This document shows positions 2,284-10,070 of a stretch of DNA of 24,784 nt, piece by piece. A program made the position numbers and the translations under genes. The notes below the pieces were generated by a model, which was not told the DNA's origin, did not search any database, and was given only the letters and a program-made list of their open reading frames with translations. The stretch comes from a virus: IMG/VR virus record IMGVR_UViG_3300009418_000113, positions 1 to 24,784 of that record; one strand, given 5' to 3'. Within the stretch, counting starts at the first letter, position 1. Every line of letters starts with the position of its first letter.

Positions 2284-3366
2284 TTACTCGGTTTTGTTTC
2301 CTGTGAGAACTTCCACAATGTAAGAAGAGACACGCACACCCGTAACAGAGGTGGCCATATGAAGTCGTTTGGTGTTTTCTAACACATCGCCTTTTCCAAT
2401 GAGTTGCCACAACTTCATGAAAGCTTCAGAAGGAAGCGATACCGCATAATCAGCTAGATGCTGAATCCCAGTCGCAGATAATTCTTCTTGGAAAGTATCT
2501 TCTGCTTCCATTTTCTCAATAAGCGCACAATGCTCATTCAGGTCAAACTTGGAGGTAGCATCGATTTTGCCATGCACCAGAATATCCTCTGTCGTCACCA
2601 CCCTCTCGTAATTCTTTACGAAGTCATTGAAAGAAACCGCAGCTTCAAATCCAACGAACCCAGTTGCAAGATTAAAAAGGAGGGGAGACGACTCTTGAAG
2701 GAGCCCAGCCTGGTCGAGACAGTCGCTCAGACGCTTCCATGAGCGTCGCGAAGGGTATACCTTGTTTGGCTCGTAGTCGTCCTTGTGTTCAAGGTGCATA
2801 CGATTCTGGTTGATGAAGTCCCAAACGATGCCAGCTACCTCATTTTTGCCCCACTCCAACCAATCTTCAACGGATGGCTCCACGTCAAAAACTGTGTATC
2901 GGTCCAATTCGGCTGGGTCCATTTCATTAACTTGGTACTGGTCCCCATGTTCACCACCATTAACGGCAGCAATCACAATCGTGTCCTTATGTAAAGTCCA
3001 CCCAGCAATCTTGCGGCTATCGGTTAGCTCAAAGATACCCTGACGCACTTCTTGGGTTGCCCGGTCAACCTCGTCCAAGAAGAGAACGACTGGTTCAGTG
3101 CAAGACTGAATGAGCCAGGAGAAAGGGCGAAAAACAGAAGCCTGTTCTCCATTGACTTCAATCAACTCAGGAGAAGGCATCCCCAACAAATCACCTTCTG
3201 TCATCTGAGATGCGCGACGTTCGACGACCGGCAGGTCCATACTTTTGGCCACCTGATAAACAACCTCAGATTTTCCTACTCCATGGCGACCACGGAGAAG
3301 GATGGGCTTTCGGACTGCTACTACGTGCGGCGCACAAGAAAGAAAAGTTTTAAAATCAATTGCCAT
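2284..3366 (-). CDS. MoxR-like AAA+ ATPase
   Basis: A 360-aa AAA+ ATPase of the MoxR type. Walker A is G26-R-H-G-V-G-K-S33. Walker B is V93-V-L-F-L-D-E-V-D-R102. Sensor 1 is A-A-V-N136-G-G, and the segment M149-D-P-A-E-L-D-R156-Y fits the arginine-finger region of the family. The C-terminal half (about 180-360) is helical. MoxR ATPases act as ring chaperones that work on a VWA partner, and the VWA/HExxH gene follows immediately. The two genes have separate promoters, with a terminator between them, so their amounts can be set independently. The ATG start has AGGAG upstream. The protein substrate cannot be told from the sequence. Confidence 0.9.
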   Translation of the reverse strand: MAIDFKTFLSCAPHVVAVRKPILLRGRHGVGKSEVVYQVAKSMDLPVVERRASQMTEGDLLGMPSPELIEVNGEQASVFRPFSWLIQSCTEPVVLFLDEVDRATQEVRQGIFELTDSRKIAGWTLHKDTIVIAAVNGGEHGDQYQVNEMDPAELDRYTVFDVEPSVEDWLEWGKNEVAGIVWDFINQNRMHLEHKDDYEPNKVYPSRRSWKRLSDCLDQAGLLQESSPLLFNLATGFVGFEAAVSFNDFVKNYERVVTTEDILVHGKIDATSKFDLNEHCALIEKMEAEDTFQEELSATGIQHLADYAVSLPSEAFMKLWQLIGKGDVLENTKRLHMATSVTGVRVSSYIVEVLTGNKTE

Positions 3367-4213: not shown

Positions 4214-4411
4214 TTAAACTTTACTCAAGACTGCTAAACTTGAGCGTCGAGGGAATTGAAGGGTGCCCGTGGGATCAACAACCACCATATGAAATGGGCC
4301 TGGGCCAAACTCCACCACCACCATGGGAGTGCGATTCTGCCAAAATTTTACCACCCAGTGACCATCTCCAGGGTTCACGTTTTCAAACACCACAAGGTCA
4401 CCAACTTTCAC
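4214..4411 (-). CDS. GDLV-family small protein (65 aa)
   Basis: The protein begins M-K-V-G-D-L-V-V-F-E-N-V. It continues with strands H-W-V-V-K-F-W, P-M-V-V-V-E-F and F-H-M-V-V-V-D, and ends in a basic R-R-S-S segment. Alternating hydrophobic residues support an all-beta fold. An ATG exists seven codons upstream (4432), but GTG at 4411-4409 fits better: it follows GGTGG, starts the family motif exactly, and overlaps the stop of the preceding gene as GTGA. The last gene of the unit driven from the promoter at 4808. Function is unknown. Confidence 0.8.
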   Translation of the reverse strand: MKVGDLVVFENVNPGDGHWVVKFWQNRTPMVVVEFGPGPFHMVVVDPTGTLQFPRRSSLAVLSKV

Positions 4412-4617
4412 TGGCCCACCACCTTCAGCCAACGCTTCATCGAACCATCACACAAACTCGGCCAGTCTTCACCAATAATATGAACCTCAAAATTGGTGAT
4501 AATGGTGCCGTCTTCCCTATGGAGTGGACGCTCGCCAAGATAAATAGCCATCTTATTATTTATATGGCGTGTGTGACCGTTAACGTAATCGAACTTCACC
4601 AAGTCTCCGGCTTGCAT
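4408..4617 (-). CDS. GDLV-family small protein (69 aa)
   Basis: The protein begins M-Q-A-G-D-L-V-K-F-D-Y-V, followed by strands K-M-A-I-Y-L-G and F-E-V-H-I-I-G-E-D-W. It ends with W-L-K-V-V-G-Q. The ATG at 4617 has AGGGGA eight bases upstream. It is the first gene after the putative structured RNA (4652-4768), and its stop overlaps the GTG of the next family member. Strand pattern and glycine positions match the other copies. No enzyme motif is visible. Confidence 0.82.
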   Translation of the reverse strand: MQAGDLVKFDYVNGHTRHINNKMAIYLGERPLHREDGTIITNFEVHIIGEDWPSLCDGSMKRWLKVVGQ

Positions 4618-4651
4618 ATTTTTCCCCTAGATAAAAACAAATATAAAAAGA

Positions 4652-4768
4652 GGGGGGTCGCTCCGCTGTCTTCGCCGCGAATCGCTAGATACCTTTCGAT
4701 TATGTTCCCCTCACGAGTATCATTGAAGGTTGGTTAATCCATTATTGCCTATTGTTTAGCGACCCCCC
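4652..4768 (-). ncRNA. Putative structured RNA or leader element (117 nt)
   Basis: A perfect 11-bp inverted repeat (GGGGGGTCGCT at 4768-4758 and AGCGACCCCCC at 4662-4652 on the minus strand) closes a 95-nt interior. The interior can form at least a GAUAC/GUAUC helix and a UUCG/CGAA hairpin. An internal AGCGA could compete with the 3' arm for pairing with UCGCU, and AAGGU and GUAUC share bases, so two mutually exclusive folds are possible. The closing stem is followed by a U-rich stretch (UCUUUUU). A consensus promoter lies about 40 nt upstream and the first GDLV gene begins 35 nt downstream. I do not recognise a tRNA, tmRNA, SRP RNA or known riboswitch core. It may be a free small RNA, an attenuator or a leader that controls the downstream genes. 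Confidence 0.5.
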
Positions 4769-4793: not shown

Positions 4794-4807
4794 AGTTTAT
4801 AGTGGCC

Positions 4808-4836
4808 ATTATACTATTTTCACCTTCTCTTGTCAA
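4808..4836 (-). promoter_or_regulatory. Consensus sigma-70 promoter for structured RNA and two GDLV genes
   Basis: TTGACA at 4836-4831, a 17-bp spacer and TATAAT at 4813-4808. Both hexamers are perfect. Transcription should start near 4801, leaving an unusually long leader of about 185 nt before the ATG at 4617. That leader holds the 117-nt inverted-repeat element. Confidence 0.85.
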
Positions 4837-4860: not shown

Positions 4861-5067
4861 TTACGCTGAGTTAATAAGAGACGCAGCCCAAAAGGGTTCA
4901 TCAAAATCCCTCTCCCCTCCCTCTACATATATCGTAAAAATACGATGTGCATTAACATTAGAAGTTTTCTGGTTTATCTTAATAAGAATTCCCACAACAG
5001 AATAGGGGATTCCATCCATTTGATTTTCATCTGGATCATAAATCTTAACTAAATCACCCGGCTTCAT
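4861..5067 (-). CDS. GDLV-family small protein (68 aa)
   Basis: The protein begins M-K-P-G-D-L-V-K-I-Y-D-P-D, then P-Y-S-V-V-G-I-L-I-K-I, a spacer, and R-I-F-T-I-Y-V-E-G-G-E. It ends W-A-A-S-L-I-N-S-A. The ATG at 5067 follows AGAGG by six bases and overlaps the previous gene by 14 nt. It is the last gene of the unit that starts at 6235. All-beta in appearance, without catalytic residues. Confidence 0.82.
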   Translation of the reverse strand: MKPGDLVKIYDPDENQMDGIPYSVVGILIKINQKTSNVNAHRIFTIYVEGGERDFDEPFWAASLINSA

Positions 5068-5441: not shown

Positions 5442-5680
5442 TCTACCACCCTCACAGAGCCGTTCTCAAAGGCTACATAATCAACTCGTGAAGGGGTGGT
5501 ATCACCCGCCCACAATACATCGATGCATCGAGCGTTCCATCCCCACCCATCATCATGACGACTACTAATATTGTAGGCCAATCGCGTAATTATACCATAA
5601 CGGATCGCGCCCGTCCACTCACCCTCGTTAAATATTTTTACCAAATCACCGACTTTTACTAATGATTTTTGCGTATCCAT
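5438..5680 (-). CDS. GDLV-family small protein with N-terminal extension (80 aa)
   Basis: The family motif K-V-G-D-L-V-K-I-F starts at residue 9, after M-D-T-Q-K-S-L-V. At the place where the other copies have their ATG, this DNA reads GTA, so the usual start codon appears lost. Translation now begins at an ATG 24 bases further upstream, inside the previous gene, with AAGGA at good distance. Later strands are Y-G-I-I-T-R-L-A and C-I-D-V-L-W-A. The protein ends G-S-V-R-V-V-E. It overlaps the preceding gene by 35 nt, more than other copies. Confidence 0.8.
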   Translation of the reverse strand: MDTQKSLVKVGDLVKIFNEGEWTGAIRYGIITRLAYNISSRHDDGWGWNARCIDVLWAGDTTPSRVDYVAFENGSVRVVE

Positions 5681-5816
5681 TTTCTATTTCCTTTTCGTCG
5701 AATGAAATGAAGTAGGGCAAGTCATTCCACTTTACCTCCCAAAACGTTTCCCAGTGGTGGCCTACAACAATAGCCAATATCCCGTCAGAATCCATAAGTA
5801 AATCACCGATTTGCAT
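5646..5816 (-). CDS. GDLV-family small protein (56 aa)
   Basis: An ORF from ATG 5816 to TGA 5648-5646 encodes M-Q-I-G-D-L-L-M-D, then G-I-L-A-I-V-V-G-H-H-W and W-E-V-K-W-N. The end is acidic then basic (F-D-E-K-E-I-E-N, I-I-S-K-S-R). Upstream is AAGGTGA as ribosome site. It overlaps the end of the GIY-YIG gene by 14 nt and the start of the next family gene by 35 nt. Without it, 5681-5802 would be an unexplained gap in an otherwise gapless array, which supports it as a real gene. Confidence 0.75.
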   Translation of the reverse strand: MQIGDLLMDSDGILAIVVGHHWETFWEVKWNDLPYFISFDEKEIENGYAKIISKSR

Positions 5817-6063
5817 CAATCACCTTTAATTTTTCTTTCCGCGTCAAGCGTTTGAATGCATATTCTGCTTTCTGAGCCTCTGAACGACCTTTAAAAGCCG
5901 TCGAATAAACTAGGGTGATAGGACGTCGGGTTTTAGTATATTTCGCCCCCTTACTGCCGCTATTGTGTTCATTTAAGCGCCTATCTATATCGGTAGTAAC
6001 CCCGGTATAAAGGGTGCCATCGGCGCACCTTGCCACGTATAAAAACCAATTAATTGCTTTCAC
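5803..6063 (-). CDS. GIY-YIG nuclease-domain protein (UPF0213/YhbQ-like)
   Basis: An 86-aa single-domain GIY-YIG protein. The GIY part is W-F-L-Y9-V-A-R-C and the YIG part is T-L-Y19-T-G-V-T-T. Then come D-I-D-R28-R-L-N-E-H-N with the conserved Arg, and E67 in Q-K-A-E-Y as the probable catalytic acid. Length and the P-I-T-L-V-Y segment match the small UPF0213 group rather than long homing enzymes. It starts at GTG 6063 with GAGGG upstream and overlaps both neighbours by 14 nt, exactly as the GDLV genes do among themselves. Its place in the middle of that array may mean it helped to move or multiply the copies, but it could also be a plain DNA-processing nuclease. Confidence 0.88.
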   Translation of the reverse strand: MKAINWFLYVARCADGTLYTGVTTDIDRRLNEHNSGSKGAKYTKTRRPITLVYSTAFKGRSEAQKAEYAFKRLTRKEKLKVIDANR

Positions 6064-9767: not shown

Positions 9768-9795
9768 AGTATAACATATAAAAAGGATTTGTCAA
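9768..9795 (-). promoter_or_regulatory. Sigma-70 type promoter, extended -10
   Basis: TTGACA at 9795-9790, a 16-bp spacer and TATACT at 9773-9768, with TGT just before it (extended -10). The predicted leader to ATG 9746 is about 15-18 nt and contains AAGGAG. It drives the unit from 9746 toward the PAP2 and LeuA-like genes. Confidence 0.72.
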
Positions 9796-9803
9796 CAAAA
9801 AAA

Positions 9804-10070
9804 TTAAAATAAAGTTTTATATACTGTAGCCACTGTAAGACCCACAATTGCCGTGATTATAATCCATATAAGACGCGAAGAGGTGGCTTGCCAGCCCTCA
9901 AGTTCGCGAAGGCGCGCATATAACCCTTCATCGGGATGATAAACAGCTTCTTTAATTTTAGCAATATCCTGGGCCATCTCATCTTGTTTTTCATTTACTA
10001 CTTCTAATTTTTGCATAATTTGATCAAATTTTCCATTCATCTCAGCATGAACAACAGCATCCGCAGACAT
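9804..10070 (-). CDS. Coiled-coil protein with C-terminal TM (XhlA-like layout)
   Basis: An 88-aa protein: residues 12-42 form an amphipathic coiled coil (F-D-Q-I-M-Q-K-L-E-V-V and I-A-K-I-K-E-A-V), residues 46-62 contain D-E-G-L-Y-A-R-L-R-E-L-E, and residues 67-84 form one membrane helix near the C-terminus. This layout resembles haemolysin XhlA and phage holin-accessory proteins. A role in lysis is possible but not proved. It follows groEL by 29 nt without a terminator and so is in the groEL unit. GGGGGA precedes the ATG. Confidence 0.72.
   Translation of the reverse strand: MSADAVVHAEMNGKFDQIMQKLEVVNEKQDEMAQDIAKIKEAVYHPDEGLYARLRELEGWQATSSRLIWIIITAIVGLTVATVYKTLF

Follow-up and report, generated by a model that had tools for sequence, protein, structure and literature searches.

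Comparative evidence for a pseudoknotted RNA family of large marine phages that recurs upstream of phage tmRNA genes

Riboswitches of the preQ1-II type are built on H-type pseudoknots, in which a hairpin loop pairs with a downstream strand and an extra hairpin is inserted before the 3′ strand. In the marine phages Melnitz and Mosig, a glnA glutamine riboswitch resides beside the tmRNA gene, and the tmRNA of Melnitz is a two-piece (permuted) molecule (PMC9004378). GOLLD, ROOL and similar orphan RNAs, which are often carried by phages, are structured, ornate and much larger than the RNA described here, and have no assigned function (PMC12286853). The STAXI motif, a tandemly repeated pseudoknot located near DNA-handling genes, is an example of a structured RNA found by comparative genomics (PMC2864571).

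The element that we describe was noticed in a 24,784-bp IMG/VR fragment (the window, by which we mean the whole stretch of DNA analyzed), for which no near match was found among named phages. A preliminary description of the window had pointed to an exact 11-bp inverted repeat enclosing 95 nt, and this repeat is present as described (GGGGGGTCGCT at 4652-4662 and AGCGACCCCCC at 4758-4768). It lies in a 243-nt gap between two GDLV ORFs, 4408-4617(-) and 4861-5067(-), and the full-consensus promoter reported to stand across this gap from the GDLV gene does match at 12 of 12 positions. Transcription is predicted to start near 4801, which yields a leader of ~184 nt where ~185 nt had been proposed, and the U-rich tail said to follow the closing helix carries nine T residues in its first 12 nt. 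Counterparts of the promoter score 11/12 in locus L003 and 11/12 in L006 (TTGACA/TATGAT), and the U-run after P1 scores 10/12 in L003, 12/12 in L293 and 11/12 in L296. The downstream GDLV ORF has no Pfam match.

The 117-nt element folds with unusual stability (z = -4.5; 0 of 200 shuffles are equally stable), most of which is owed to P1, and the fold of the full leader is unremarkable (z = -0.6). The RNA of the plus strand was rejected as the functional form, as evident by its weaker fold (z -3.1) and by the U-G pairs of P2, which would become A-C on that strand. Judged from this single sequence alone, the case for a structured RNA would be moderate. What settles the matter is the comparison with relatives, in which the closing helix persists with an unrelated sequence and the internal helices covary.

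These relatives were gathered by several routes. The element of L003, recovered by a pattern scan, is 96.6% identical to that of the window. Eighty relatives of the neighboring MoxR-type ATPase (window 2284-3366) were fetched and the cores near them were compared, which exposed copies of the element with wholly different closing helices. Covariance models (R1 and R2) built from these copies were used to search the loci and whole contigs, and a pattern scan over all IMG/VR contigs added further members to give an aligned set of 29 loci. All derive from uncultured large marine phages, range in length from 110 to 165 nt and share one common architecture. A strict descriptor scan recovered members already known and a single false positive, in a coding sequence. 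No similar element was found in the named phages tested, and the genome-contig pattern scans yielded either nothing or chance coding matches. A search of 299 Pseudomonadota genomes likewise gave no match, under strict filters and without a positive control, such that absence elsewhere is not implied.

Two sets of loci carry RNAs that are related more distantly. In L033:7067-7165, L037:7071-7180 and L041:7067-7165, a divergent relative coincides with the very end of the gene for the MoxR-type ATPase, directly after the stop codon, with the stop codon included in the 5′ arm of its P1 (GAAUAG) and the 3′ arm entering a U-run. The window carries a hairpin terminator of the ordinary kind (2245-2278) at the corresponding site. 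A larger variant of ~150-180 nt with a 14-bp closing helix (L032:5405-5560 and L051:5400-5560) resembles the family in no more than the 3′ module GGCUGG..AUGUGGCGCGACGAGGACAGCGGC and the pseudoknot made by the hairpin loop.

Members of the family present, from 5′ to 3′, the P1 5′ arm, a linker, P2, a variable P3 hairpin, AAAGG, the 3′ strand of the pseudoknot, UAG/UGG, P4, the P1 3′ arm and a U-rich tail (Table 1). P2 is a CUUCA/UGAAG hairpin whose loop carries GRYNC, and this pairs with a downstream GNRYC to create an H-type pseudoknot, with AAAGG running directly into the 3′ strand. The loop of P4 varies with the type of member, being GYGAAGA in those linked to tmRNA and a purine-rich sequence of 10 nt, such as GACGAGGACA, in those that are free-standing.

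Table 1. Features of the RNA element and its surroundings in the window.
Feature	Position	Strand	Basis or remark
Structured RNA element, P1 to P1′, 117 nt	4652..4768	(-)	29-locus family; covariance models R1/R2
P1 5′ arm, GGGGGGUCGCU	4758..4768	(-)	Exact inverted repeat; relatives keep the helix with other sequences
P1 3′ arm, AGCGACCCCCC	4652..4662	(-)	Exact inverted repeat; relatives keep the helix with other sequences
P2 5′ strand, CCUUCA	4724..4729	(-)	96.6% of cells paired, 29 members
P2 3′ strand, UGAGGG	4708..4713	(-)	29-member alignment
Pseudoknot 5′ strand, GAUAC, within P2 loop	4717..4721	(-)	98.6% paired in 29 sequences; both-sided changes at 4/5 pairs
Pseudoknot 3′ strand, GUAUC, overlaps conserved AAAGG	4688..4692	(-)	UAGC comes next, where the consensus of the family is UAG/UGG
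P4 5′ strand, UCGC	4677..4680	(-)	P4 covaries in tmRNA-linked members
P4 loop, GGCGAAGACA	4676-4667	(-)	
P4 3′ strand, GCGG	4663..4666	(-)	
Sigma-70 consensus promoter	4808..4836	(-)	TTGACA 4836-4831, 17-nt spacer, TATAAT 4813-4808; 12/12 match
U-rich tail after P1, terminator-like (UCUUUUUAUAUUUGUUUUU)	4630..4651	(-)	First 12 nt: 9 T
Downstream GDLV ORF, 69 aa	4408..4617	(-)	Start codon 34 nt past P1

Compensatory base changes in homologues, which had been named beforehand as the test of a structured RNA, are abundant in P2, the pseudoknot and P4. P2 and the pseudoknot together hold 35 cells changed on both sides, compared to 11.1 after shuffling, and none of 500 shuffles reaches 35. Strand pairs that are exactly complementary include GAUAC/GUAUC, GAUGC/GCAUC, GAUUC/GAAUC, GACUC/GAGUC, GGUUC/GAACC, GGCUC/GAGCC and GGCUU/AAGCC, among others; two members carry one mismatch, and in an earlier set of 17 sequences the pseudoknot was 100% paired. 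P4 is 98.6% paired in ten tmRNA-linked members, with both-sided changes at five of seven pairs (1/500 shuffles), and the short P4 of the window (4 bp) draws its support more from the family than from its own sequence. The sequence of P1 differs in almost every member, and pairing is nevertheless far better between a member's own flanks than between swapped ones (26.4 versus 17.2; 0 of 20,000 permutations). Sequences that are kin can beat such shuffles even when no structure is present, and controls with slid columns agree with the flank-swap test. Alignment A4 fuses the strands of the hairpin and the pseudoknot, omits the variable middle and so counts pairs in strands chosen beforehand; the unjoined alignment (A3) gives the same outcome.

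From these data, we are nearly certain that the element encodes a genuine structured RNA that is conserved. L006 retains the same downstream GDLV gene as the window and also retains the repeat arms, with a different sequence. Not all details of the preliminary description fared as well. Copies of AGCGA had been proposed to offer an alternative pairing, which is not conserved because the P1 arms of other members are unrelated in sequence. An overlap of AAGGU with GUAUC had been proposed in the same sense, but a switch there is unsupported, as GUAUC (4692-4688) instead pairs with GAUAC (4721-4717) in the pseudoknot helix that the family maintains.

The genomic placement of the element is varied. 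In 11 of the 29 loci, a phage tmRNA gene begins 14-35 nt downstream of the element, which in most of them is preceded by a TTGACA promoter; nine of these tmRNAs are confirmed by ARAGORN or Rfam, and those of L281 and L284 are recognized by the 5′ motif only, the latter being cut by the contig end. The remaining 18 loci are elsewhere. The GDLV array emphasized at the outset is the setting in the window, but the family is not confined to it, and other copies close operons. The element is preceded by its own promoter in the window, L003, L006, L024, L099 and L287, and free-standing copies mostly end in a U-run, which is weak in L007, L008, L012, L010, L011 and L013. Signals for a free-standing small RNA gene, namely its own promoter and a terminator, are evident from sequence in the window and in L287, and not in every member. 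In L287, transcription from the promoter would begin at about P1, and P1 is trailed by a U-run, such that by its signals this is a complete small-RNA gene.

Genome G004 carries two copies of the element, one at tmRNA and one near MoxR, and in G005, G008 and G075 no element precedes the tmRNA and the element is located 35-45 kb away. Because tmRNA and element are kept apart in the latter genomes and both types of copy coexist in the former, the RNA is an independent unit that has shifted from locus to locus. Such varied placement argues against a leader dedicated to a single gene, and favors a free-standing non-coding RNA that is sometimes co-transcribed with tmRNA.

Within this phage group, tmRNA scores above the cut-off in 21 of 41 records. 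Most large members encode a one-piece tmRNA (e.g. L114:1611-2021 and L100:1614-1921) with tags such as ANDNVEFDYALAA, and upstream of several of these tmRNAs come a small gene, whose product ends like KYNTESFFEE, and then a promoter. The window also has other features of note. A 25-nt AT-rich stretch with TTGACA (9789-9813) matches the upstream portion of the promoter at 4836 with 92% identity, which suggests that this phage reuses an extended promoter element. A further 12/12 sigma-70 consensus promoter (3439-3411, minus strand) is located directly upstream of the MoxR-type ATPase gene. Within two adjoining GDLV ORFs is a 16-nt inverted repeat (88% complementary, 5565-5580 and 5758-5773, 177 nt apart), and a stand-alone GIY-YIG endonuclease (5803-6063) is embedded in the GDLV array; the endonuclease is also present in L004, followed by a GDLV gene.

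We modestly favor the view that the element represents a new family of free-standing, pseudoknotted non-coding RNAs of large marine phages that are released and act in trans. This provides the best fit because the closing helix is variable, the knot is conserved, a dedicated promoter and U-run are frequent and no neighboring gene is constant. The window RNA would be transcribed leftward from the promoter at 4836-4808, whereupon P1 would close the RNA on itself and the P2/pseudoknot unit and P4 would generate a compact three-way arrangement. Owing to P1 and the U-rich tail, some or all transcripts would end near 4640-4630, yielding an RNA of ~150-170 nt, and read-through transcripts would serve to express the GDLV gene. 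The released RNA would show a conserved surface comprising CUUCAAUG...UGAAG, AAAGG before and UAG/UGG after the pseudoknot, and a P4 loop of GNGAAGA or GACGAGGACA, and this surface would most likely bind a protein or ribonucleoprotein. Repeated co-transcription with phage tmRNA may point to a role in translation or RNA processing during infection. Our data establish the fold, the family, where its members lie and the signals of promoter and U-tail; termination and release we infer, and trans action and a link to translation are suggested by placement only.

Weak U-runs in several members count against this free-standing mechanism, as do several copies positioned 20-40 nt ahead of a start codon, where leaders would reside; moreover, full termination upstream of tmRNA would starve the tmRNA. 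A search for a partner gene by co-occurrence, in which RNA-positive and RNA-negative genomes were compared, gave only neighborhood and phylogeny signals. Pairing with the neighboring tmRNA is not preferential (-57 kcal/mol with its own, -60 kcal/mol when swapped). A doubtful extension is that the RNA acts in trans with or against ribosome rescue, whereby the phage tmRNA and the RNA would be a paired module that, in infected cells, shields the translation of the phage or remodels that of the host.

The main and serious rival is a riboswitch-like element acting in cis, which we regard as possible. As an aptamer, the pseudoknot would recognize a metabolite or protein, and the expression platform, made of P1 and the U-run, would control transcription of the downstream tmRNA or GDLV gene. 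An H-type pseudoknot with a conserved core and a variable P1 is indeed typical of aptamers, and in many loci the element is situated between a promoter and one of these genes. Coupling of this kind exists, given that control of a marine phage tmRNA by a glutamine riboswitch is published (PMC9004378). However, in L007, L008 and L021 the element closes an operon and the next gene has its own promoter past the element, the downstream genes are of differing kinds, no Rfam riboswitch matches, and a distant GDLV orthologue in L004 (68% identity) manages with no element in front of it. This orthologue and the operon-end copies weaken the cis reading.

It is rather unlikely that the element is instead a 3′-end or processing element. 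On this view it would serve as a structured terminator, or as a knot that blocks exonucleases, to protect or mature a neighboring RNA (mRNA 3′ ends or the 5′ side of tmRNA), and would have no trans function. In the sequences of L010, L011, L015 and L021, as in the variants L033, L037 and L041, the 5′ arm of P1 shares sequence with the end of the upstream gene (in the first four, with its last codons), U-runs come after several members, and 11 phages have the element immediately 5′ of tmRNA. Yet a simple terminator would have no need of a conserved pseudoknot core, and many members are directly behind a promoter with no upstream gene in the transcript.

The proposal that a degenerate or permuted piece of tmRNA (the acceptor half) was duplicated beside tmRNA and then spread is largely refuted and very improbable. 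The permuted tmRNA model (RF04321, tmRNA_permuted) passes its cut-off across element plus tmRNA in four loci (L100, L298, L301 and L114), but only when the true tmRNA 5′ piece, which matches well, is included. On the side of the element, the alignment shows a weak match with gaps. Searched by itself, the element gives no match; it has no UUCGA T-loop and no CCA end, and the adjacent tmRNA is complete. A chance inverted repeat in an AT-rich gap has virtually no likelihood, given 29 homologous loci with covarying helices, even if the window holds many inverted repeats of 10-12 nt.

The suggestion that this could be a new structured RNA of no known class, either a regulatory leader or a small RNA, is therefore supported by 29 covarying loci and by the Rfam search that had been proposed with it: Rfam 15 at gathering cut-offs gave no matches in the window or in eight loci, and permissive searches of three members returned chance matches only. 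Literature searches, partial in their coverage, revealed no description of such an element. Very probably, this is a new and previously uncatalogued RNA family present in ~30 related uncultured phages. We rate the family as categorically new, a claim that does not extend to its mechanism. Covariation this strong is uncommon in new RNA families, and selection for function is indicated because the RNA, so far seen only in phages and at one or two copies per genome, is kept despite changes in sequence and location. Its repeated coupling to tmRNA makes testable the questions of why a large phage should bring a tmRNA of its own and what accompanies it, and the core pattern and structure allow the element to be annotated in other viromes.

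Among known systems, preQ1-II riboswitches share with the element the pairing of a loop to a downstream strand and the extra hairpin before the 3′ strand. However, the element has another sequence core, a long closing P1 and a hairpin P4, and no conserved ribosome-binding site is formed by the 3′ strand of its pseudoknot, where GGUAUC, GGCAUC and GGAACC all occur. Like GOLLD and ROOL, it is a structured orphan phage RNA, but one of only 110-165 nt that no Rfam family matches. Like STAXI and other metagenomic motifs, it is a pseudoknot found by comparative genomics, although the families entered into Rfam from that study (PMC2864571) do not match it. With tmRNA (RF00023 and RF04321), it has in common a pseudoknot, adjacency and probable co-transcription in 11 phages, whereas it has no tRNA-like domain, tag frame, T-loop or CCA end, and alone does not match. 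The permuted two-piece tmRNA and known riboswitch family of Melnitz contrast with the one-piece tmRNA and the absence of any Rfam riboswitch match here, and many copies of our element are far from any tmRNA, unlike the glnA riboswitch of Melnitz and Mosig. What these phages and ours have in common is a structured RNA adjoining the tmRNA gene of a marine phage.
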